Assembly (NCBI GenBank): GCA_903915035.1
Contig: CAIWRI010000030.1
Location: forward strand, 1 to 53,630
DNA from: an uncultured Nitrosomonadales bacterium
GTDB lineage: Bacteria > Pseudomonadota > Gammaproteobacteria > Burkholderiales > Gallionellaceae
Length of the DNA stretch: 53,630 nucleotides
Direction of reading: 5' to 3'
The position numbers and the translations under genes are program-made. The notes below the pieces were generated by a model. That model was given only the letters and a program-made list of their open reading frames with translations, was not told the DNA's origin and did not search any database. Every line of letters starts with the position of its first letter. Position 1 is the stretch's first letter. Of this stretch, positions 41,631 through 53,478 are shown in pieces.

Positions 41631-41852
41631 TAAACTGACCTCAACGCCCCGACCCCACGAGCCACACCCCATCGGATAGAAATATTACGCTCTTAACCGA
41701 TGGTCGTCATCCACAATTCAATGGTAGAACCCAATGCCCCGCGACAACAAAGCGGCGGATCATGATATGGGCTGCGAGGAAAAATACATGCCCCAACGGA
41801 CGGAGAACGGGAAGGTAATCACGTAGGGGCGAATTTATTCGCCCATTCGCCC
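41631..41852. repeat. Left copy of the ~222-bp direct repeat flanking the restriction island
   Basis: Bases 41631-41852 match 52799-53021 with one single-base length difference and two substitutions (about 98.6 percent identity by eye). The repeat contains the REP-type palindrome GGGCGAAT-TT-ATTCGCCC near its right end. The right copy overlaps the 3' end of a RAYT transposase, so this left copy looks like a detached RAYT tail with its REP. The pair encloses about 11 kb. Confidence 0.92.
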
Positions 41853-42020: not shown

Positions 42021-42287
42021 ATGAAAGCCGACATTATCAGCCGTTTTATCAAGCTGCTGAACGACGTGCAGCCCACCTTCAGCGAAGAACTGGCTGCGGG
42101 CATCGAGCGCCGGTTGCGCGAGGAATACCGTGGCGAGCGGGTGTATATCGCCAAACATACCGACAACCTGCACGCTATCGTCCGGTCGCGCTTTTCCGGC
42201 GACAACGTCGGCCAACTGGCCGTTGAGCTGAAAATCTCCCGCCGCACCGTCTACCGGTCGCTGCAAAGAAGGAATAAGACACCGTGA
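42021..42287 (+). CDS. Mor-family-like transcription activator
   Basis: An 88-residue protein with the Mor/C layout: an N-terminal helical dimerisation part (FIKLLNDVQPTFSEELAAGIE), a short strand (GERVYIAK) and a C-terminal helix-turn-helix IVRSRFSGDNVGQLAVELKI plus SRRTVYRSLQ. Mor of phage Mu activates the middle promoter. Stand-alone relatives occur next to mobile genes and defence genes. Here it is the first gene of the island, reads toward the helicase 238 bases downstream and so could control it. A strong GGGAGG lies just before the ATG. Confidence 0.82.
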   Translation: MKADIISRFIKLLNDVQPTFSEELAAGIERRLREEYRGERVYIAKHTDNLHAIVRSRFSGDNVGQLAVELKISRRTVYRSLQRRNKTP

Positions 42288-42356
42288 ATTACGCCTATTC
42301 GGTGAGAGTCTTACAAGCAGATGCTGATAATTATGAGTTCACGAAGCATAATTGCC

Positions 42357-42372
42357 TGTGATATAGATCACG
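42357..42372. promoter_or_regulatory. Near-consensus CRP-type operator
   Basis: TGTGA-TATAGA-TCACG matches the CRP/FNR-superfamily consensus TGTGA-N6-TCACA in nine of ten specified positions. It lies about 150 bases before the helicase gene, in a gap (42288-42524) that has no coding frame and is A+T-rich downstream. It may make expression of the restriction operon respond to cAMP or a Crp-like regulator. Confidence 0.55.
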
Positions 42373-42524
42373 TGAGCGATTCCGATTAACAATATCAGCG
42401 TTTGCCCTTATCATGCTCGCGGGATACTATCCTTCATTGATTACAACACCATTAACGAGCAATGCCATTCAATATAGCGGAATTTGAAATTATTGGTGTT
42501 CGGGTGGGTTACCCCGTTTAAACG

Positions 42525-45500
42525 ATGGAACTCATCGACAACATCAACCGACTGCTCGGCGACGACCTGAAGCAGACGATTAAGCCTGGCGCCAGGCTGA
42601 AAATCGCCGCCTCCTGTTTCTCGATGTACGCATTCGAGGCGCTCAAGGCCGAACTGGAAAAAATAGATGAGCTGAATTTTATTTTCACTTCGCCCACTTT
42701 TGTCGCTAACGAAGTCACCGACAAAATTCGCAGGGAGCGCAAAGAGTTCCACATTCCGAAATTGGATCGTGAGCGTAGCTTGTATGGCAGTGAATTTGAG
42801 ATTCAGCTTCGCAATAAGCTCACCCAGCGTGCCATTGCAAAGGAATGTGCTGACTGGATGCGGCGCAAGGCTACCTTCAAGTCCAATCGCAGCAAGGCTC
42901 CGATGCAGCAGTTTGCCTGCATAGAAGCCAGCGGCGCGGATATGGCCTACATGCCATTACACGGCTTCACAGCGGTTGATCTTGGTTATCAACAAGGTAA
43001 CGCCGTCTCCAATCTGGTCAACAAGATGGACGAACCCGCCTTTGCGACTACCTACCTCAGCCTGTTCAACCAAATCTGGAACGACCCTACCAAGCTGGAG
43101 GACGTTACAGCTCAGATTTGCGAACACATTGCATCGGTGTATCAGGAGAACTCGCCAGAAAGCATCTACTTTCTGATGCTATACAACATTTTTAATGAGT
43201 TTCTGGACGACATCGACGAAGACGTTTTGCCCAATGATCGCACCGGCTATCAGGACACACTGATCTGGAATAAACTCTTCAACTTTCAGAGGGATGCGGC
43301 TACCGGCATCATCAATAAGCTCGAAACTTACAGTGGCTGTATCTTGGCCGACAGTGTCGGTTTGGGTAAAACCTTCACGGCCTTGGCTGTGGTGAAGTAC
43401 TACGAGTTGCGAAACCGCTCCGTGTTAGTGCTCTGTCCCAAGAAACTGGCAGACAACTGGCTGAACTACAACCGCAACCTCAAGACCAACATCTTTGCCC
43501 GCGACCGCTTTAACTATGACGTGCTTTGCCATACCGATTTGCAGCGAACCAGCGGCGAGTCATTTGGCACGCCGCTCAACCGCATCAATTGGGGAAATTA
43601 CGATCTTGTTGTCATCGACGAATCACACAATTTTCGCAACAACGATGCCTATAAAGAAAAGGAAACACGCTACCAGAAGTTGATGAATCAGGTCATCCGG
43701 CAGGGCGTCAAAACCAAAGTGCTGATGCTCTCAGCGACTCCGGTGAACAACCGCTTCAATGACTTGCGCAACCAGCTGGCACTGGCCTACGAGGGGGATT
43801 CAGAAAACCTCAGTAAAAAGCTGCGTACCGATAAAACGATTGAGCAGATTTTTAGCAACGCGCAGGCAAGCTTCAATGCATGGGCGAAGTTGCCCGTCGA
43901 AGCGCGCACGGCTCGTGCCATCCTCGATTCGTTGGATTTCGATTTCTTTGAATTACTCGACAGCGTTACCATCGCACGCTCGCGCAAGCATATTCAGACT
44001 TTTTACGATACGAAGGACATCGGCTCATTCCCCGTGCGGCGTAAACCTTTGTCATTTCATTCTCCGCTCACTCAGCGCACGGATGTAATGAGTTTCAACG
44101 AGATTTTCGATCAACTTTCGTTGCTTAAACTCGCTGTCTATGCACCGATCAGTTACATCCTACCCAGCCGGCTAAAAAAGTATGAAGAAATGTACGACAC
44201 GCAAGTGGCGGGTGGCAAAAGCAAGTTCAAGCAAGTTGATCGCGAGAGGAGTTTACAGGCGCTAATGACCACCAACCTGCTCAAGCGACTGGAAAGTTCG
44301 ATTGAGTCGTTCCGCTTGACCTTGCAGTCACTGCGCACTAAGCACAACAGCACGCTGGACAAGATTAGCGCATTCAATCAGAGCGGCAGTGTTGCCAGCG
44401 TCGACGATTTGACGGATCAGTTGGAAAGTTTGGAAGCCGATGAGGATGACTTGCCGATACCCGTGGAAAACGAGATCGGCGGCAAGGTCAAAATCAGCCT
44501 GGCGGATATGGATCTGCCATCCTGGGAGCACGAGCTAAAATCGGATATGGAAATCATCGATGCGTTGCTGGTCTCGATGAACAGGGTGACACCTGCCGAT
44601 GATGCCAAACTTCAGCATGTCAGGGCGCTTATCCAGGCTAAAATCGCCAACCCGATCAATCCGGGCAATAGAAAGATACTGCTTTTTACCGCTTTTGCAG
44701 ATACGGCCAATTATCTCTACGCCAACTTAGCACCTGAGTTGTTGGAAATTCAGCACCTCTATAGCGCTAAAGTAACTGGTAGTTCGCCGCCCAAATCGAA
44801 CTTGACGAAGAACTATGATTTTCAGGAGCTGCTCACGCTGTTTTCCCCGCGCTCAAAAGAAAAATCTATCGTACTTCCCGGTGAACCTGCTGAAATTGAC
44901 CTGCTGATCGGCACCGACTGCATTTCAGAAGGCCAGAACCTGCAGGACTGCGACTACCTCATCAACTACGATATTCACTGGAATCCGGTGCGTATCATTC
45001 AGCGTTTTGGCCGGATAGACCGCATCGGCTCAACGAATGCCAGCATCCAGCTGGTCAACTACTGGCCGGATATTTCACTCGACGAGTACATCAACCTCAA
45101 AGAGCGAGTTGAGAGCAGGATGATGATCGCCGATGTCACGGCCACCGGAGATGACAACGTCCTTAGCGCTCAAGCCAACGACGTGTCCTACCGCAAGGAG
45201 CAATTGCGTCGCCTGCAAGAAGAAGTGATTGAACTGGAAGATTTGAAGACTGGTGTGTCGATTACTGACATGGGACTCAATGACTTTCGCATGGATTTGC
45301 TTAACTACGTCAAAGCCAATGGTGAGTTGAACAACATGCCGAGTGGGATGCATGCCGTAGTGCCTGCAAACCCGGAAACGGGTCTGTACCCGGGCGTGAT
45401 CTTCACGCTGCGCAATGTCAATCCGAACGTGAACGTCAGCCAGCATAACCGACTGCATCCCTACTATCTGGTCTACATCAACCGCGAAGGTGAGGTGATC

Positions 45501-45797
45501 CACGACCACACCGAGGTCAAGCGACTGCTGGATCTGGTGCGCAGCTGCTGCAAGGGGCAATCTCAGGCACTTCCTGATGCCTGCAGTCTGTTCAACAAGG
45601 AAACTGCTGATGGCCGCAAGATGCAGGTGTATTCCAACCTGCTGGGCAAGACCATCCGCTCGATGATCGCAGTGAAGGAAGAAACGGATATGGATAGTCT
45701 GTTCCGTGGAATGAGTCCTACTGCGTTGGGAGGTTCTTTCAAGGGGCTGGATGATTTCGAACTGATTGCCTTTTTGGTTATTCAGGAGGTGATTTGA
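42525..45797 (+). CDS. SNF2-type helicase with N-terminal PLD-like region (restriction island)
   Basis: A 1090-residue superfamily 2 helicase. The first ~180 residues resemble a phospholipase D-like fold (LKIAASCFSMYAFEALKAEL) but no HxK motif is visible, so that part is probably inactive. The helicase has Walker A ADSVGLGKTFTA (about 273-284), the DESH box VVIDESHNF (about 361-369), motif III LSATPVNN (about 400) and motif VI IQRFGRIDRIGS (about 824-835). A charged linker lies at about 580-660, between the RecA lobes. It would use ATP to move on DNA. It is co-directional with DUF4391, mod, yhcG and res and overlaps DUF4391 by TTGA, so it is the first gene of that operon. No good Shine-Dalgarno precedes the ATG. 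Confidence 0.9.
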   Translation: MELIDNINRLLGDDLKQTIKPGARLKIAASCFSMYAFEALKAELEKIDELNFIFTSPTFVANEVTDKIRRERKEFHIPKLDRERSLYGSEFEIQLRNKLTQRAIAKECADWMRRKATFKSNRSKAPMQQFACIEASGADMAYMPLHGFTAVDLGYQQGNAVSNLVNKMDEPAFATTYLSLFNQIWNDPTKLEDVTAQICEHIASVYQENSPESIYFLMLYNIFNEFLDDIDEDVLPNDRTGYQDTLIWNKLFNFQRDAATGIINKLETYSGCILADSVGLGKTFTALAVVKYYELRNRSVLVLCPKKLADNWLNYNRNLKTNIFARDRFNYDVLCHTDLQRTSGESFGTPLNRINWGNYDLVVIDESHNFRNNDAYKEKETRYQKLMNQVIRQGVKTKVLMLSATPVNNRFNDLRNQLALAYEGDSENLSKKLRTDKTIEQIFSNAQASFNAWAKLPVEARTARAILDSLDFDFFELLDSVTIARSRKHIQTFYDTKDIGSFPVRRKPLSFHSPLTQRTDVMSFNEIFDQLSLLKLAVYAPISYILPSRLKKYEEMYDTQVAGGKSKFKQVDRERSLQALMTTNLLKRLESSIESFRLTLQSLRTKHNSTLDKISAFNQSGSVASVDDLTDQLESLEADEDDLPIPVENEIGGKVKISLADMDLPSWEHELKSDMEIIDALLVSMNRVTPADDAKLQHVRALIQAKIANPINPGNRKILLFTAFADTANYLYANLAPELLEIQHLYSAKVTGSSPPKSNLTKNYDFQELLTLFSPRSKEKSIVLPGEPAEIDLLIGTDCISEGQNLQDCDYLINYDIHWNPVRIIQRFGRIDRIGSTNASIQLVNYWPDISLDEYINLKERVESRMMIADVTATGDDNVLSAQANDVSYRKEQLRRLQEEVIELEDLKTGVSITDMGLNDFRMDLLNYVKANGELNNMPSGMHAVVPANPETGLYPGVIFTLRNVNPNVNVSQHNRLHPYYLVYINREGEVIHDHTEVKRLLDLVRSCCKGQSQALPDACSLFNKETADGRKMQVYSNLLGKTIRSMIAVKEETDMDSLFRGMSPTALGGSFKGLDDFELIAFLVIQEVI

Positions 45798-46471
45798 TTA
45801 TCAACCTTCACCCGGCTTATCTGCTTTATCCAGCCAGGGCTGAGATGAACCGCACTTTGCCTAAGGGTAAGTTCTATGAATACGGAAGTATTAGCAGCAA
45901 AGTTCGCGAATATTTTGTAAGCCAGGTCGAAAAAATCACCTTAAAGTATGTACTGGCGAGTGCAACAAGCAATCTGCCGCCCAAAGATGGCGTATCTGAA
46001 TTTCATGTGTTTAGTTTGGAACTGAAAACTCCAGAGCTTAATCTTGACGTATTGCGCTGTATAGATGAAGTATGGCATTTTCCGGTCATTTTTGAGCTCT
46101 TATATGATGGAAAAATTAAAGTAGTCGCAGCCTGTAAGCGGGGCAGTGTTGCTGATGCCAGTCGTTGGGTATGCAGTGATTACTTTTCGACTGGTTGGCT
46201 GACTGGTGATATTCAGCGCACTGCTATGCCGCTGGCGCTTGATCTGGGCAATCTGTATGAACAGGTATTGAAACGACTGATTCCGTTGTCTGCCCGTCCG
46301 CTGGAAAATCTTGCCGATTTGGTTGCGCGCTCAGAGATGGTCAGCTCAAAGCAGCGCGATGTCGATAAAACAGTAAGCAAACTCGCTAAAGAAAAACAAT
46401 TTAACCGCAAAGTGGAAATCAACGCCAGTCTGCGGCAACTGAAAATCGAACTTGAACAATTGAGCCGTTGA
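45794..46471 (+). CDS. DUF4391 domain protein, TTG start
   Basis: A 225-residue protein with the DUF4391 pattern: MNRTLPKGKFYEYGSISSKV, then IDEVWHFPVIFELLYDGKIK and a C-terminal coiled-coil rich in Lys/Glu. It starts at TTG 45794, overlapping the helicase stop as TTGA, with an AGGAGGT just upstream. The first in-frame ATG is 17 codons later and has no such signal. I know DUF4391 as a family found next to SNF2 helicases and type III methyltransferases, with no established biochemistry. The LEN/DVLRCIDE region contains acidic residues but no recognisable nuclease motif. Confidence 0.82.
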   Translation: MIINLHPAYLLYPARAEMNRTLPKGKFYEYGSISSKVREYFVSQVEKITLKYVLASATSNLPPKDGVSEFHVFSLELKTPELNLDVLRCIDEVWHFPVIFELLYDGKIKVVAACKRGSVADASRWVCSDYFSTGWLTGDIQRTAMPLALDLGNLYEQVLKRLIPLSARPLENLADLVARSEMVSSKQRDVDKTVSKLAKEKQFNRKVEINASLRQLKIELEQLSR

Positions 46472-46496
46472 ACACTGGCGGACTAAGGAAATAAAC

Positions 46497-48482
46497 ATGG
46501 ATCAACTGAAAATGCACTCGCCCAACCTCATGCAAGCCAACGTTGCCCGCATTCGCGAGTTGTTTCCGAACTGCGTCACCGAAGCAAAGGATGCTGATGG
46601 CGCAGTGAAGCTGGCTGTGGACTTTGATCAGCTCCGGCAGGAACTTTCCGATTCCATCGTCGAAGGCCCTCAGGAACGCTATCACCTCAACTGGCCGGGA
46701 AAGCGCGAAGCGCTTTTAACAGCGAACGCGCCCATAGCTAAAACCCTGCGACCCTATCGGGAAGAAAGCGTGGATTTCGATACCACGCAGAATCTGTTCA
46801 TCGAGGGCGACAACCTCGATGCGCTGAAATTATTGCAGGAGACGTATCTCGGCAAGGTCAAGATGATTTACATCGACCCGCCATACAACACGGGTAAGGA
46901 TTTTATTTATGAAGATGATTTTTCTGAGAATAGCGAAGCATTCTTGATCAAATCAAATCAAGTAGATGAGAGGGGCAATCGTCTAGTTGCAAATAAAGAT
47001 TCGAATGGTCGTTTTCACTCTGACTGGCTGTCGATGATGTATCCAAGAATGAAACTTGCCAGAAATCTTCTTGCGGAGGATGGCGTTCTTTTCTTGACGC
47101 TAGATGACACTGAGGTTGCCAATATGCGACGTATTGGTGATGAAATCTTTGGGGAGAACAACTTCGTTGCAAACGTTGTATGGCAGAAAAAATATGCGGT
47201 AGCGAATGATGATCCGGGAATTGGCGTGATGCATGACCACGTCCTGGTATATCGAAAATCAGATGCCTTCGTCAGAGGCTTGCTCCCACGTAAAGCTGAA
47301 CAAAACGCACGCTATACCAATCAAGACAATGATCCTAGGGGTGAATGGGCTTCTGATAATTACGTTAGCAACAAATCCAAAGATGAGCGCCCGACGCTTT
47401 GGTACTCAATTACGCATCCCAAAACTGGTGCAGATGTGTGGCCGGAAGAGCATGCCGTCTGGCGTTACTCCAAGGAAAAACATTCGGAAATTGAAAGGGA
47501 GGGTAGGCTCTATTGGGGCCCTAACCAGTCCTACAAGAAGCCACGACTAAAGCGATACCTCAAGGAGGTTCAACAAGGAATTGTCCCTCCTACTTGGTGG
47601 ACGTTTGATGAGTGTGGACACAATGACGAAGCACAGAAAGAAACAGCTGCACTACTTGGACAAAAAGTATTCTCGACCCCAAAGCCTATACGTCTTATTG
47701 ATAGAATGATTGCCATTGCGGCTGCAAAGGATGGAATCATCCTTGATTTTTTTGCAGGATCTGGCTCAACTGCACACGCAACATTGAAGGCAAACGCCCA
47801 AGATGGGGGTGCCCGCCGGTTCATTGCCGTTCAACTTCCAGAGCCATTGTCTGAAGACAACAATACCCAAAAAAATGCAGCACTTTTCTGCAAGCAACTC
47901 GGTGTTGCGGCAAATATTGCGGAACTAAGCAAGGAACGCATCCGTCGCGCCGGCAGTAAAATCAAGCAGGAAAACGCAGGTAAGGAAGGCATCGACAAAC
48001 TTGATACTGGCTTCCGTGTCCTCAAAGTTGACACATCCAACCTGGCCGAAGTGTATTACACCCCCGACGCGGTGTCGCAAGACCTGCTGTCTGATCAGGT
48101 TGATAACATCAAATCCGACCGCACCGCCGAAGACCTGTTGTTTCAGGTCATGCTGGACTGGGGCGTTGATCTTTCGCTTCCTATCATTCGCGAAAAATGG
48201 AAAATTGACAATGGACAATGGGTAAGGTTAAGTGCTGATAATTCTCAATTCTCCACTATCAATTCTCAATTGTTTGAAGTGTTCTTTGTGGATGGCAATG
48301 CGCTGGCGGCCTGTTTTGATAACACGGGCAACATCGACGAGGCCTTCGTGAAGGAGCTGGCAAAAACACAGCCGCTACGCGTAGTGTTCCGCGATGCCGG
48401 TTTCAGGGACAGCGCGGTCAAGATCAACATCGAGCAGATTTTCAAGCTGTTGTCGCCGGGCACCGAAGTCAAGTGCATCTGA
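46497..48482 (+). CDS. mod: Type III restriction-modification methyltransferase subunit (Mod)
   Basis: A 661-residue N6-adenine methyltransferase of the beta class: the catalytic motif IV DPPY (127-130, MIYIDPPYNTGKD) comes before SAM motif I FFAGSGSTAHAT (about 418-428). The variable target-recognition region lies between, at about 215-390, so the recognition sequence cannot be inferred. It would methylate one strand of an asymmetric site and give Res its specificity. AAGGA precedes the ATG. Odd: a 27-28 residue insertion encoded by a repeat (48199-48273) splits the conserved REK ... VFFVDGNALAACFD segment near the C-terminus. Confidence 0.94.
   Translation: MDQLKMHSPNLMQANVARIRELFPNCVTEAKDADGAVKLAVDFDQLRQELSDSIVEGPQERYHLNWPGKREALLTANAPIAKTLRPYREESVDFDTTQNLFIEGDNLDALKLLQETYLGKVKMIYIDPPYNTGKDFIYEDDFSENSEAFLIKSNQVDERGNRLVANKDSNGRFHSDWLSMMYPRMKLARNLLAEDGVLFLTLDDTEVANMRRIGDEIFGENNFVANVVWQKKYAVANDDPGIGVMHDHVLVYRKSDAFVRGLLPRKAEQNARYTNQDNDPRGEWASDNYVSNKSKDERPTLWYSITHPKTGADVWPEEHAVWRYSKEKHSEIEREGRLYWGPNQSYKKPRLKRYLKEVQQGIVPPTWWTFDECGHNDEAQKETAALLGQKVFSTPKPIRLIDRMIAIAAAKDGIILDFFAGSGSTAHATLKANAQDGGARRFIAVQLPEPLSEDNNTQKNAALFCKQLGVAANIAELSKERIRRAGSKIKQENAGKEGIDKLDTGFRVLKVDTSNLAEVYYTPDAVSQDLLSDQVDNIKSDRTAEDLLFQVMLDWGVDLSLPIIREKWKIDNGQWVRLSADNSQFSTINSQLFEVFFVDGNALAACFDNTGNIDEAFVKELAKTQPLRVVFRDAGFRDSAVKINIEQIFKLLSPGTEVKCI
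48199..48273. repeat. In-frame palindromic repeat insertion inside mod
   Basis: The left arm AAATTGACAATGGACAATGG and the right arm, whose complement reads AATTGAGAATTGATAGTGGA, form an imperfect inverted repeat. Between normal Mod segments (SLPIIREK and EVFFVDGNALAA) it encodes KIDNGQWVRLSADN and SQFSTINSQLF. Related Mod proteins, as I recall them, go directly from REKI-GK to the VFFVD strand. The frame is kept, so the methyltransferase may still be active. Confidence 0.65.
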
Positions 48483-48492
48483 GGAATTGGCC

Positions 48493-48603
48493 ATGAGCGA
48501 GATAACAAATCATAGCGATTACCGGCAGGTTTTATGTGTTTCCAACCCACAGTTTGAATTTGCCCCGCAGGCTGTGGGACAATTGTCGAGGCGACTGCCA
48601 TGA
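48493..48603 (+). CDS. 36-residue mini-ORF between mod and yhcG
   Basis: GAGGA lies 8 bases before an ATG that opens a 36-codon frame (MSEITNHSDYRQVLCVSNPQ ... SRRLP) ending in TGA at 48601-48603, which overlaps the ATG of the nuclease gene (ATGA). The signal and coupling suggest it is translated, either as a small protein or as a leader that sets nuclease expression. It could also be the remnant of a longer gene. I recognise no family. Confidence 0.45.
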   Translation: MSEITNHSDYRQVLCVSNPQFEFAPQAVGQLSRRLP

Positions 48604-49673
48604 GTGTCACCTTAAAGCAAGATAGCGATTTTTTGCGCTTGCTGGGAACGCTGGTTGCTACCCACAGCACACTGCAACAACAAGCCGCACGCTCGGTAGA
48701 TACGGCGCTGGTAACACGAAACTGGTTATTTGGCTGGTATATTGTCGAGTTTGAGCAGGGGGCGGCGACTCGCTCCGTGCAGTACGGCAAGCAGCTCATT
48801 GCGCGCTTGTCCGAAGGTCTGACGCAACGTGGACTGCGCGGCGTGTCGGCAACTAATCTGAAGCAGTGCCGGGCGTTTTATCTGGCCTACCCAAAGATTG
48901 GTCAGACGCTGTCTGACGTATCTTCCCTGACGCCAAATGCACCCGCATTGGCTGAGCGCTTTGTACTGGGATGGTCGCATTATGTCGTGTTGCTAACGAC
49001 ACCTTCTGCACAAGAACGCCAGTTTTATGAAATTGAGGCGCATGAAAACAGTTGGGGTGTTCGTGAACTGAAGCGTCAGATCGCCACCTCGCTGTTTGAG
49101 CGTTTGTCTCTGAGCCGTAACAAGGATGAAGTGAAAGCCTTAGCCCAAGTTGGGCAACTGATCGCAAAGCCTGCCGACATCATCAAAAGCCCCTATGTGC
49201 TTGAGTTTCTGGATTTGCCGGAGCACCCAGCGTATTCAGAGCACCAGTTGGAAATCGCCATCATCGACAAGCTTGAGCACTTTTTGCTGGAGCTGGGGAA
49301 AGGTTTTTTGTTTGAGGCGCGCCAGAAACGTTTTACCTTTGATGACAATCATTTTTATGTCGACCTGGTTTTTTACAATCGCTTGCTGCGTTGCTATGTA
49401 GTGATTGATTTGAAAATTGGCAGCCTGACGCATCAAGACTTGGGGCAGATGCAGATGTATGTCAATTATTTTAATCGCCACGTGAAACTAGCCGAAGAAT
49501 CGCCCACTATTGGTATTTTGCTGTGTTACGACAAGAATGACGCGTTGGTTGAGCTGACTTTGCCGGAAGGCAGCAATATTTACGCCTCGCAGTATCAACT
49601 CTATCTTCCATCAAAAGAGGAATTGCGGCAAAAAATTAAGGAAGCAGAACTCGCATGGGAGGCTGGACAATGA
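48600..49673 (+). CDS. YhcG-like PD-(D/E)XK nuclease (DUF1016)
   Basis: A 357-residue protein with an N-terminal DUF1016 helical domain ([20 protein letters not shown] ... [18 protein letters not shown]) and a C-terminal PD-(D/E)XK nuclease domain. [29 protein letters not shown] (Asp at about 255) and [11 protein letters not shown] (about 266-276) supply the metal-binding Asp and the D-L-K pair. It likely cleaves DNA or acts as a structural nuclease subunit. It overlaps the 36-codon ORF and the res gene by ATGA, so it is embedded in the restriction operon, an unusual extra for a type III system. Confidence 0.88.
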
Positions 49674-52600
49674 AGCTGAAATTTAAGACTCAAGCCTATC
49701 AGACGGCAGCGGTGCAGGCTGTGGTCGATTGCTTCAAGGGGCAACCACCGGCTTTTTCTGATGCCATCAGCTACCGCATCGATCCGGGCAAAGCCAGAAA
49801 AGGGCAAATAATTGGAAGTACCGCAGACAGCGGTTCAGGGTTCAAGAACGCCGATCTAAAGCTGACCGATGCCGCGTTGTTTGAAAATATCACGGGTGTG
49901 CAGCATCAGCAGAACCTGCCGCAGTCGTTGACGCTGGTCAAAAATAAGGTCAGCCGTATCAATCTCGACATCGAGATGGAAACCGGTACCGGCAAGACCT
50001 ATTGCTACATCAAGAGCATTTTCGAGCTGAACAGGCAGTATGGCTGGAGCAAGTTCATCATCGTGGTGCCCAGCATCGCCATCCGCGAGGGCGTGGCAAA
50101 ATCGCTGGAGATCACGGCGGAACACTTTTTAGAGACATATCGCAAGAAGGCGCGTTTCTTCATCTACAACTCCAGGCAGCTGCACCACCTGGAAAGTTTC
50201 GCATCGGATGCCGGGATTAACGTGATGGTCATCAACGTACAGGCATTTGCGGCTCGCGGTGCGGATAACCGGCGCATCTACGAAGAACTGGATGATTTTC
50301 AGTCGCGCCGCCCGATTGATGTCATCAGCGCAAACCGTCCCATTTTGATTTTAGATGAGCCGCAAAAGATGGAGGGTGCGGCGACCCTGAAGTCCTTGGA
50401 AGAATTCAAGGCACTGATGGTGCTGCGCTACTCGGCCACCCACAAAACCACCCATAACAAGATTCATCGCTTAGATGCGCTGGATGCCTACAACCAGAAA
50501 CTGGTGAAGAAGATTGCGGTGCGCGGCATTTCGGTCAAAGGCTTGGCGGGCACCAATGCCTATCTGTATTTGCAATCCATTGAGATTTCGACCACAAAAT
50601 CGCCGGAAGCGCGCGTCGAGTTCGAGAAAAAGATGGCTGCCGGCGAGCCCAAAAGAATGATGCGCAAATTATCAAAAGGGGACAACCTGTATGTGTTGTC
50701 TGACGGTATGGAGCAGTACCGTAATGGTTATGTGGTATCGGACATCAACGCTAATACCGACACCTTGAGTTTTACCAACGGCGTTGAACTGTTCGTTGGC
50801 GAGGCGGATGGGGATGTGAATGAGGCTGCGCTGCGTCGCATCCAGATTCGCGAAACCATCAAGGCGCATTTCGACAAAGAGGAGGTTCTGTTCCAGCAGG
50901 GCATCAAGGTGTTGTCTTTGTTCTTTATCGATGAAGTCGCCAAATATCGTGACTATTCAGCTGCCGATGATAAAGGCGACTATGCGCGTATTTTCGAGGA
51001 AGAATACAACCAGCAGCTCAACGAGGTAATGGATCTGGATGAAACGCCATACATCAAGTATCTCAAGGGAATTGATGCTGCCAGAACGCACAGCGGTTAC
51101 TTCTCTATCGACAAAAAGACCAAGCGTGATGTCGATCCAAGCATTGCGAAAACTGGCGAGAACAAAGGTTTATCAGACGATGTGGATGCTTATGATCTTA
51201 TTCTGAAGGATAAAGAAACGCTTCTTTCATTGCCTAAGTCGACAGATGATGAGCTGTCGCGTAACAAGAAAAACGTTCGCTTTATCTTCTCTCATTCGGC
51301 GTTGCGTGAAGGTTGGGACAATCCTAATGTATTTGTGATTTGCTTCTTGAAGCATCCCGACTACAACAATGAAGTGACGCGTCGACAGGAAGTCGGTCGT
51401 GGCCTGCGTTTGTCTGTCAATCAGGCCGGCGACCGGATAGATCACCCAGCCATCGTCCATGACATCAATGTGTTGACCGTGGTGGCAGGCGAAAGCTTCA
51501 AGAACTTCGTCTTAGCATTGCAGAAGGACATCAGCGAGTCGTTGTCGGCGCGTCCCAAGCTGGCCGATAAAGCCTACTTCACAGGGAAGGTGCTGAAGAC
51601 GCCGGATGGTACTGTTACCGTATCGGAGGATCAGGCAACAGAAATCGAGTTCTATCTGATTCAGAACGGTTACGTCGATAAGAAGCGCAGCATTACTGCG
51701 AAATACCACCAGGCTAAGAAAGATGGCACGCTAGAGGCGTTGCCGGACGAACTACAACCTCTCAATGAGCAGGTCTTTCAGTTGATCGACAGTGTCTATA
51801 GCGACAGCCAGTTATTCGACATCGGGGACGACCGGCGTCCAAAGAAAAATCCGCTTAACAGCAATTTTGAAAAACAGGAGTTCAAGGAGCTGTGGAACAG
51901 GATTAACCGCAAGGCGGCCTATAGCGTCGACTTTGATTCGGTTGAGCTGGTTAAGAAATCAGTCGATGAACTGGATAAATACCTGCGCGTTACTCCCTTG
52001 CAATACACCATTCAATCCGGTGAGCAGGGCGATATAGCGACTTACGATGATGTCAAAAATGGTGATTCGTTTGTGTTGAAGACGACTAATATCGAAACTG
52101 ATACCAACTCGATACACTCTGGTGTGAAATATGACCTGATAGGTAAAATTGGCGAAGGAACACAGCTGACCCGTCGTGCGACGGCGGATATTCTCAAAGG
52201 GATCAACGCAGCTGTTTTTTCACAGTTCAGGACCAATCCGGAAAGCTTCATCTCCGAAGCTGTGCGACTAATCAACGAGCAGAAGGCAACAATGGTCATT
52301 GAACACCTGGCCTATGATCCTGTGGAAGATAAGTTCGATTTGGATATTTTCACTACGGGCCAGAGCAAACAAGATTTCAGCAAGGCAGGTGACAAGCTCA
52401 AACGGCACATCTACGACTACGTTGTTACTGATTCCGGCATCGAGCGGGAATTTGTTGAGACGCTCGATACCTGCTGTGATGTGGTTGTGTATGCAAAACT
52501 GCCGCGCGGCTTCCTGATCCCGACACCCGTTGGAGACTACAACCCCGATTGGGCAATTTCCTTCAAGGAGGGACTCGTCAAACACGTCTACTTCGTGGCG

Positions 52601-52765
52601 GAAACGAAGGGTTCCATGTCCTCCATGGTGCTCAATGAGATTGAGAAAACCAAAATTAAATGTGCGGGCAAGTTTTTCGATGAGCTCAACAGAAAATATG
52701 CGCCTGCAAACGTGAAGTACAAGGTGGTGGATAGCTTCGGGACCTTGATGGAAATGGTGAAGTAA
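49670..52765 (+). CDS. res: Type III restriction endonuclease subunit (Res)
   Basis: A 1031-residue helicase-nuclease. Walker [15 protein letters not shown] lies at about 101-114, the DExx box [10 protein letters not shown] at about 226-235, motif [12 protein letters not shown] at about 252-260 and motif [15 protein letters not shown] at about 569-581. A C-terminal PD-(D/E)XK nuclease region has YNPDWAISF and FVAETKGSM (about 955-980). It needs Mod for recognition and cuts after ATP-driven movement along DNA. It starts at ATG 49670, in an ATGA overlap with the nuclease gene and after GGGAGG. An ATG at 49655 is a weaker alternative. Active-site motifs are all intact. Confidence 0.94.
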
Positions 52766-52798: not shown

Positions 52799-53021
52799 TA
52801 AACTGACCCCAACGCCCCGACCCCACGAGCCACACCCCCATCGGATAGAAATATTACGCTCTTAACCGATGGTCGTCATCCACAATTCAATGATAGAACC
52901 CAATGCCCCGCGACAACAAAGCGGCGGATCATGATATGGGCTGCGAGGAAAAATACATGCCCCAACGGACGGAGAACGGGAAGGTAATCACGTAGGGGCG
53001 AATTTATTCGCCCATTCGCCC
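52799..53021. repeat. Right copy of the ~222-bp direct repeat
   Basis: Near-identical to 41631-41852. It begins 34 bases after the res stop, includes the REP-type palindrome GGGCGAAT-TT-ATTCGCCC at 52996-53013 and three tandem GGGCGAAT-type units on the complementary strand (the left copy has two). It overlaps the 3' portion of the RAYT gene, which points to a RAYT/REP element as the origin of both copies. Confidence 0.92.
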
Positions 53022-53478
53022 ATTCGCCCCTTATCCATATTGCATCCCAAAGCGGGTATTCTCCCATTTTTTTAACCAAACCAGCACGCAGCGGGTTCGC
53101 TACGATATACCGGGCGACAGCTTGAATATCCTCTTCGCAGCGCAGCGCGTGGTCATAATAACCCTTTTGCCATATCACACCATGCTGCCCATGATGCCGG
53201 TTGAGCGCTTGAGCTGAACGAGCCTTGAAATGTTTCATCGCTTCGGAGAGCGTCATTTTTTCGCCGAGTTGAAATAACCAATGCAAATGATCCGGCATGA
53301 TGACCCACGCCAGGCTGTTCACGATACCCTCCTCATGTAGTTTACGCATTTCCGCCACGACTAGCCTGCCATCGGTGAAATCTGCAAATAGCAATGCGCG
53401 GTTATGCGTGCAGATCGTGACATGATAAGCATGATAAGCGAGAGAAACACGACCTTTGAGGAGATTATCGCGTGACAT
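52876..53478 (-). CDS. rayT: REP-associated tyrosine transposase (RAYT, Y1/HUH family)
   Basis: A 200-residue single-domain HUH transposase. YHVTICTHNRALLF starts the fold, MPDHLHWLF (His64, His66) is the metal-binding HUH motif, and WQKGYYDHALR (about 103-113) contains the candidate nucleophilic Tyr. ARYIVANPLRAGLV completes the family pattern. Family members normally end near PLWDAIW (about 142-148). Here the frame continues about 50 residues through its own REP, encoding GEWANGRINSPLRDY, so the normal end seems lost. It probably nicks and moves REP hairpins such as those at both island edges. No good Shine-Dalgarno is seen. Confidence 0.9.
   Translation of the reverse strand: MSRDNLLKGRVSLAYHAYHVTICTHNRALLFADFTDGRLVVAEMRKLHEEGIVNSLAWVIMPDHLHWLFQLGEKMTLSEAMKHFKARSAQALNRHHGQHGVIWQKGYYDHALRCEEDIQAVARYIVANPLRAGLVKKMGEYPLWDAIWIRGEWANGRINSPLRDYLPVLRPLGHVFFLAAHIMIRRFVVAGHWVLSLNCG

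Follow-up and report, generated by a model that had tools for sequence, protein, structure and literature searches.

The block at positions 42,021–52,765 of a 53,630-nucleotide stretch of DNA from an uncultured Nitrosomonadales bacterium (contig CAIWRI010000030.1; the whole stretch is referred to below as the window) probably encodes a motor-coupled type III restriction-modification (R-M) system, in which a core of four genes is accompanied by one exchangeable cargo gene, yhcG. The architecture itself, consisting of an SNF2-family helicase (Hel), a DUF4391 protein, the methyltransferase Mod and the restriction subunit Res, together with cargo that is swapped among relatives, is proposed with high confidence from sequence comparison. 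Type III systems are known to comprise two proteins. Their ATP-dependent cut falls ~25 bp from an asymmetric recognition site, and a pair of oppositely oriented sites is normally involved. The initial annotation of the block had described it as more than a minimal type III system, and the four-gene core bears this out.

The Hel–DUF4391–Mod–Res core

Hel matched SNF2-rel_dom (4.8e-12) and Helicase_C (2.6e-11) in Pfam, and the protein that follows it matched DUF4391 (2.6e-47), a family to which Pfam assigns no function and for which no PADLOC or NCBIfam model matched. Mod matched N6_N4_Mtase (7.2e-35) in Pfam and MTase_III (2e-234) in PADLOC, and its sequence contains DPPY and FAGSG; Res matched ResIII (3.9e-13) and RE_endonuc (1.6e-31) in Pfam. 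These matches place the two proteins in the type III family, with a predicted N6-adenine methyltransferase and a predicted SF2 ATPase bearing a C-terminal nuclease domain. The genes lie in one operon, mod first, with a 36-codon open reading frame (ORF) and yhcG between them. By eye, the motifs of Hel, Mod, YhcG and Res appeared intact. Among enzymes of the EcoP15I/EcoP1I kind, the Mod (1.6e-57) and Res (8.4e-62) of EcoP15I are sequence relatives of those in the window, whereas phage P1 has only res and a mod region with an IS5 insertion annotated, and no Hel, DUF4391 or cargo is annotated there between res and lxc.

To define the core, loci anchored on DUF4391 were collected from 398 genomes of the window's phylum, 23 of which carry DUF4391 (25 loci), and their surroundings were read with profiles grown from the window's proteins. 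Hel was found upstream of DUF4391 in all 21 loci having more than 300 bp there, Mod downstream in 22 of the 23 loci with any downstream sequence, and Res in 19 of the 20 with enough downstream sequence; L088 forms the exception. Further loci were added from IMG/VR, GTDB contigs and plasmids; all were recruited through Hel, DUF4391 or Res, so the slot percentages given below are not population frequencies. All four genes are collinear in the order Hel, DUF4391, Mod, Res in 129 of 152 DUF4391 loci, a count that leaves out 16 duplicates (L031, L043, L070 and 13 loci of a Res scan) and the short loci L001–L026. The window has this one-strand arrangement, as do 128 further loci, two of which (L097 and L137) are near-identical; without that duplicate 128 complete loci remain. 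A viral scan with Mod as query yielded 3 loci, which enter no count. The neighbourhood survey across genomes that the initial annotation proposed thus recovered the four-gene order in more than 100 loci, with YhcG rarely included. The Hel|DUF4391 junction is particularly tight, measuring at most 50 bp in 116 of the 129 loci (115 without the duplicate) and consisting of exactly a 4-bp overlap in 72. These comparisons indicate that the conserved core is the set of four genes Hel, DUF4391, Mod and Res.

The core is broadly distributed. Among the best 80 of 564 relatives on GTDB contigs, 74 are complete cores, spread over twelve named phyla with one unplaced and led by Pseudomonadota (40) and Actinomycetota (15). 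The Hel–DUF4391 DNA of plasmid pLAO18 was found at 97.5% identity or more in 10 of 5,426 complete E. coli genomes, on plasmids in nine and on the chromosome in one. In the set of L109, L241 and L240, the core follows a repA region common to two E. coli plasmids of ~112 kb (the Res of L241 is annotated as frameshifted), and one E. coli chromosome carries nearly the same core ~11 kb from the tRNA-Ile gene next to mug.

Some loci depart from the standard gene content. Four operons (L037, L069, L175 and L179) contain two long Mod frames each, possibly representing two specificities, and L172 and L180 have more than one Mod match each, in shorter pieces. In L123 (13279–15441), DUF4391 forms the N-terminal part of a 720-aa protein, the remainder of which has no Pfam match.

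Co-inheritance of the core genes and its exceptions

To compare divergence among the core genes, rank correlations of pairwise distances were calculated for the 104 of 129 loci that have four full-length proteins. Hel, DUF4391, Res and the N- and C-terminal parts of Mod showed mutual correlations of 0.82–0.95; Hel distances correlated with those of DUF4391 (0.93), Res (0.95), the Mod N-terminus (0.83) and the Mod C-terminus (0.90). In contrast, the target-recognition region of Mod (approximately residues 195–385) was uncorrelated with the other core parts (−0.07 to −0.11; −0.08 with Hel). The same division was apparent in 241 pairs of loci with Hel more than 80% identical, in which Res averages 80% identity and DUF4391 69% but the target-recognition region only 28%. 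These sequence comparisons indicate that Hel and DUF4391 remain associated with Res and the two ends of Mod as target specificity is swapped. The earlier grouping of the helicase and DUF4391 with Mod and Res is upheld by near-constant company, gene order and correlated divergence.

Several observations weigh against this reading. The Hel|DUF4391 junction exceeds 300 bp in 10 of the 129 loci, and the structural model of Hel is poor (pLDDT 69.7). Approximately residues 386–470 of Mod, which are part of the methyltransferase core, are as uncorrelated (−0.07) as the target-recognition region, and residues 97–160 are only weakly correlated (0.38–0.47), so the domain limits are to be taken as rough. 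Linked inheritance without contact could alone give correlated distances, and the correlation therefore supports a physical unit but does not prove it. L088 contains DUF4391 with no Mod within 9.6 kb; L072 consists of a Res fragment, Hel, DUF4391 and a Piwi protein, with 9.3 kb free of Mod downstream of DUF4391; and L045, L046 and L052 have a short Mod match and no Res. Finally, Mod–Res occurs without the pair. RE_endonuc scored above 70 bits at 42 places in the 398 genomes, 18 of them with DUF4391 within 15 kb; 20 of the 24 others were fetched, and in 10 of them the sequence upstream of the block extends for at least 5.5 kb. Thus, 10 of 28 judgeable Mod–Res loci of the same broad family lack DUF4391, compared with 18 that have the pair. 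The pair-less loci fall in several parts of the Res tree, on which the label 'linked' changes seven times (a quick tree with one very long branch). Although 7 of the 15 rows labelled as lacking Hel stop at contig edges (L224, L227, L230, L231, L234, L235 and L239), the safely unlinked rows (L222, L226, L228, L229, L233 and L236–L238) occupy at least three places.

Hel and DUF4391 were almost never found without Mod, and Mod–Res occurs without them. The pair looks dependent on Mod–Res and not vice versa, and appears optional for the wider Res family. An arrangement in which Hel–DUF4391 and Mod–Res are two independent defence systems, sharing an operon through defence-island clustering, would account for Mod–Res without the pair and for L088 (DUF4391) and L072 (both) without Mod nearby. 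We regard it as quite improbable, given the invariant gene order, the nearly constant presence of Mod–Res beside the pair and the correlation of the pair's divergence with that of Res and the Mod ends.

Two of the pair-less loci, L220 and L232, have another SNF2 helicase upstream of Mod. In L220 (1032–9361), a DrmD-like SNF2 helicase (705 bits) lies directly upstream of Mod–Res, replacing Hel–DUF4391, and a 231-aa ORF is located between Mod and Res. In L072 (1–6496), a 684-aa protein with a Piwi domain (PF02171, 2.1e-16) lies 19 bp downstream of DUF4391.

Exchangeable cargo and the position of YhcG

Two junctions of the core accommodate additional genes. The DUF4391|Mod junction (slot 1) exceeds 300 bp in 35 of the 129 loci and the Mod|Res junction (slot 2) in 53, and 61 loci have neither; without the L097/L137 duplicate these counts are 35, 52 and 61. 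Calling slot genes by the longest ORF favours the operon strand, a bias that a limit of at least 150 aa lessens but does not remove; with this limit, 92 of 96 slot ORFs are on the operon strand. Of the 16 clusters with at least two such members, 15 are confined to one slot (shuffled mean 4.9; 0 of 5000 shuffles as high, relatedness being ignored). Families were named from representatives, 30 proteins of which 21 were above a Pfam cut-off, with three more scanned later, and PADLOC was run on nine slot proteins. Cargo at Mod|Res comprises Schlafen/AlbA_2–HATPase proteins (a cluster of 18, one a fragment), RhuM (8), Fic, AAA_21 with DUF4276, PLD-like and Abi_2 proteins, and YhcG (2). At DUF4391|Mod we found DUF2130 (5), UvrD-like helicases (3), zeta-like kinases (3), OLD-TOPRIM (2), SIR2 with HerA (2), GmrSD, AAA with subtilase, and SieB. 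Bro-N proteins were found in both slots, and the slot proteins of L027, L163 and L209 had no family match. The two slots form a natural catalogue of candidate anti-phage effectors.

The cargo turns over repeatedly. A Hel tree of 124 of the 129 loci shows at least 40 changes of slot-2 family and at least 24 changes of slot-1 occupancy. The window and its five nearest relatives, whose Hel proteins are 83–89% identical to that of the window, form a group with 99% support, and these five carry five cargo sets that differ from the window's: a 224-aa protein without assignment (L027), a protein of the DUF2130 cluster (L093), OLD with DUF2130 (L105), a UvrD-like protein (L106) and a 125-aa member of the Bro-N cluster (L115).

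YhcG follows this pattern. Both of its domains are present (DUF1016_N, 1e-31; YhcG_C, 2e-53; Pfam), as in the PADLOC domain definition of PDC-S02 (YhcG/DUF1016). Among the surveyed loci, the position between Mod and Res is occupied by YhcG only in the window and in L165, the two proteins being 32% identical, and in L132 YhcG lies upstream of Hel. Because the window's protein was the sole basis of the YhcG profile, distant YhcG genes may have escaped it; nonetheless, the 19 ORFs of 300–420 aa in the Mod|Res slot all fall in non-YhcG clusters except those of the window and L165. YhcG_C was detected in 54 of the 398 phylum genomes, and, comparing the two sets of hits, the window's gene is the only one on a contig that also has a DUF4391. 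The nearest YhcG relative detected (L211, 63% identical) is part of a type I operon, where HsdS and HsdR flank it. The window's genome carries four further YhcG genes (L243–L246, on contigs C53, C48, C50 and C29): one lies with an MmeI-like enzyme, one with a type I HsdR and a Schlafen-like gene, and one with a type I HsdS and HsdR. The remaining one belongs to a DUF499/DUF1156/PLD-SNF2 helicase set resembling the BREX-related systems described in PMC12839542.

A role for YhcG as a core subunit was rejected on account of the cargo turnover in relatives, its homes in other operons and its rare company with DUF4391; by sequence comparison YhcG is exchangeable cargo. Independent variation from mod and res, which the initial annotation had named as grounds for abandoning its proposal, thus holds for the DUF1016 gene but largely not for the helicase and DUF4391.

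The 36-codon ORF and the Mor-like gene were considered as a small subunit and a conserved regulator, respectively, and both were rejected. For the former, no NCBIfam model matched, the longer frame (48394–48600) had no Pfam or PADLOC match, and no credible homologue was present in the surveyed loci, the best tblastn hit (E 0.32) being a stretch antisense to another ORF; no homologue beyond chance was thus found. For the latter, the protein scored 24.3 bits against a Pfam cut-off of 24.9, the plasmid collection gave no match, and a local model matched only the window and L211 among the surveyed loci. The L211 protein is 81% identical and is located beside a phage terminase large subunit, away from any Hel. 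As judged by these searches, the Mor-like gene is not a conserved part of the system, and the 36-codon ORF is probably not one either. As an observation on L211 (6562–18633), the HsdM–HsdS–YhcG–HsdR operon, a GmrSD_N protein and the Mor-like protein by the terminase are all on one contig.

The initial annotation had instead proposed that all seven genes, including YhcG and the mini-ORF, encode a single machine containing two helicases and two nucleases. Overlapping stops and starts do tie the mini-ORF, yhcG and res together, and L165 repeats the order Mod–YhcG–Res with 4-bp overlaps on both sides. However, the closest relatives bear other cargo, YhcG is at home in other operons, the mini-ORF is without a homologue and the relative of the Mor-like gene is located elsewhere. 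We therefore consider a single seven-gene machine very unlikely, with YhcG, the mini-ORF and the Mor-like gene falling outside the conserved parts.

Predicted roles, known systems and surroundings of the operon

Structural models were used to examine the two proteins that distinguish the core. The DUF4391 model (pLDDT 95.4) predicts an α+β domain followed by two long helices that form a C-terminal hairpin. A Foldseek search against the Protein Data Bank (PDB) returned nothing at E ≤ 0.001, and a second structural comparison covered mainly the hairpin, which gives no basis for calling a new fold. A role as an enzyme was not supported, no residue being invariant in 42 sequences, and from sequence DUF4391 is apparently a small, non-catalytic protein. 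For Hel, the best PDB matches of the model were RapA and other SF2 ATPases, including SNF2 remodellers, with the whole-protein alignment limited to the motor part. The initial annotation had also assigned the helicase a degenerate PLD-like N-terminus. This remains plausible, as the N-terminal 235 residues show a weak collinear match to a PLD-SNF2 helicase (PLDc_2) of the same genome (hhalign probability 11.6%), but it is not established; of 168 Hel relatives, 166 lack HxK(x4)[DE] in their N-terminal 260 residues and 2 have it. An active PLD nuclease was not supported for the Hel N-terminus, which lacks HxK(x4)D.

As a motor-coupled system, the operon would function as follows. Mod–Res would recognise unmethylated sites and cut as EcoP15I-type enzymes do, as their homology suggests. 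Hel would be a double-stranded-DNA motor joined through DUF4391 to the conserved parts of Mod–Res, and may move along the target DNA or remodel it, either ahead of cleavage or following it. This motor-plus-adaptor role, to which co-inheritance and domain content point, is proposed tentatively, with the balance slightly against it. YhcG could serve as a backup nuclease, coming into play upon engagement or blockage of the core, a role that we suggest with more reserve because of its precedents, namely toxins in R-M operons (PMC3710099) and BREX backup effectors (PMC12839542).

Other roles for the pair are also conceivable. Hel–DUF4391 could serve modification, helping Mod to reach or choose sites or restraining Res on the host chromosome, in keeping with the position of hel and duf4391 before mod and with distances that track both Mod ends as well as Res; this is unlikely, as many Mod–Res pairs do without Hel–DUF4391 and there is no direct sign of a methylation role. 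Fast change in Mod is also a trait of phase-variable Mod genes, and the rapidly changing middle of Mod could suggest that the operon is mainly an epigenetic switch rather than a phage defence. Such a function is extremely doubtful in view of Res motifs that look intact and cargo of defence or toxin kinds.

An extension of the motor-coupled reading, which we offer as speculative and rather unlikely, is that Hel–DUF4391 forms a docking or sensing platform that makes type III systems modular. The platform would sense whether Mod–Res is engaged or inhibited, and the slot-specific cargo, with separate sets for DUF4391|Mod and Mod|Res, would be kept in check and then let go as a second attack. The same platform could be reused with a Piwi/Argonaute-like protein in the usual position of Mod, as in L072. 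If so, the operon would represent an unnamed type III branch spanning a dozen phyla. DUF4391 gains a context as the near-constant partner of an SNF2 motor within a widespread type III form, and the presence of an extra ATP motor whose divergence parallels that of Res raises the testable question of how type III enzymes finish off phage DNA.

The block was also compared with known defence systems. DISARM is marked by DrmA, DrmB and DrmC beside a methyltransferase, and BREX by PglZ and BrxC/PglY. Among the matches listed for the eight block proteins against Pfam, PADLOC and NCBIfam, there was no DrmB, DrmC, PglZ or BrxC/PglY. Hel shares its SNF2 motor with DISARM DrmD (PADLOC, 6.6e-34), but the DrmD and DrmA matches are partial, and its NCBIfam DrmD score of 143.9 bits is far below the cut-off of 610. 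The best match of Hel was PADLOC C3a139 (HKD+Snf2; 9.6e-120), from residue 180 on, and that of YhcG was PDC-S02 (6.5e-130).

PrrC in PrrI, RhuM and Doc are toxin-like genes within R-M operons that have been proposed as a further line of defence (PMC3710099); the PrrC case is type I, whereas the window is type III with the additional Hel–DUF4391 and two cargo junctions. Auxiliary and backup effectors are described for BREX and BREX-related systems in PMC12839542, and their overlap with the present cargo includes Schlafen with a histidine-kinase-like domain, GmrSD, OLD/TOPRIM and PD-(D/E)XK nucleases. In contrast to those systems, the window's core is Mod–Res with Hel–DUF4391, and the main text of that source names neither DUF4391, DUF1016 nor YhcG. 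The nuclease assignment of YhcG is a 2005 prediction, with one R-M association, in Methanosarcina (PMC1189080). DUF4391 is named in a domain-enrichment table of PMC7784981, its sole mention among the open-licence PMC papers searched. A published system with these components was sought, and no account of the Hel–DUF4391–Mod–Res set was found in the open-licence PMC papers searched.

Table 1 Features of the block and of its flanks in the window.
Feature	Coordinates	Strand	Basis
Hel, SNF2-family helicase, 1090 aa, core	42525..45797	+	Family matches; adjoins DUF4391 in relatives
DUF4391 protein, TTG start, 225 aa, core	45794..46471	+	Family match, structure model
Mod, predicted type III N6-adenine methyltransferase, 661 aa, core	46497..48482	+	Family matches
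36-codon ORF at head of Mod|Res slot, probably not a conserved part	48493..48603	+	No homologue found
YhcG (DUF1016_N + YhcG_C PD-(D/E)XK), exchangeable cargo in Mod|Res slot	48600..49673	+	Family matches, comparison
Res, predicted type III restriction subunit, core	49670..52765 (likely start 49670; longest frame 49655)	+	Family matches
Mor-like HTH protein, 88 aa, beside operon, not a conserved part	42021..42287	+	Mor match just under Pfam cut-off
Direct repeat, left copy bracketing island	41632..41852	+	
Direct repeat, right copy bracketing island	52800..53021	+	

All seven reading frames of the initial annotation are present at the positions it gave (Table 1), and its account of their packing was accurate. 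Hel and DUF4391 overlap by TTGA (45794–45797) and the mini-ORF and yhcG by ATGA (48600–48603), with gaps of 25 bp between DUF4391 and Mod and 10 bp between Mod and the mini-ORF. The ATGA overlap of yhcG and res fits an ATG at 49670 overlapping the yhcG stop, which is the likelier start of Res than 49655 of the longest frame.

The ORFs upstream of the operon in relatives include 12 in one cluster, of which the one scanned was HTH_17, and 8 in another, annotated as WYL in L105 and L106; the remainder are varied. Promoter and terminator scans of the region gave matches no more numerous than in shuffles. Upstream of a promoter-like match at 42386–42414 (10/12), before Hel, the sequence TGTGATATAGATCACG at 42357–42372 is a palindrome resembling the CRP/FNR consensus, and it is the window's only match (0.15 expected). 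The whole island is bracketed by a direct repeat of ~222 bp, the copies of which are 99% identical, 11.17 kb apart and the only two in the window's genome; recombination between these copies would delete the island. The right copy extends into a gene for a REP-associated transposase (52876–53478, minus strand), and the contig ends (53540–53630) within a frame that presumably represents the start of an IS30-type transposase.

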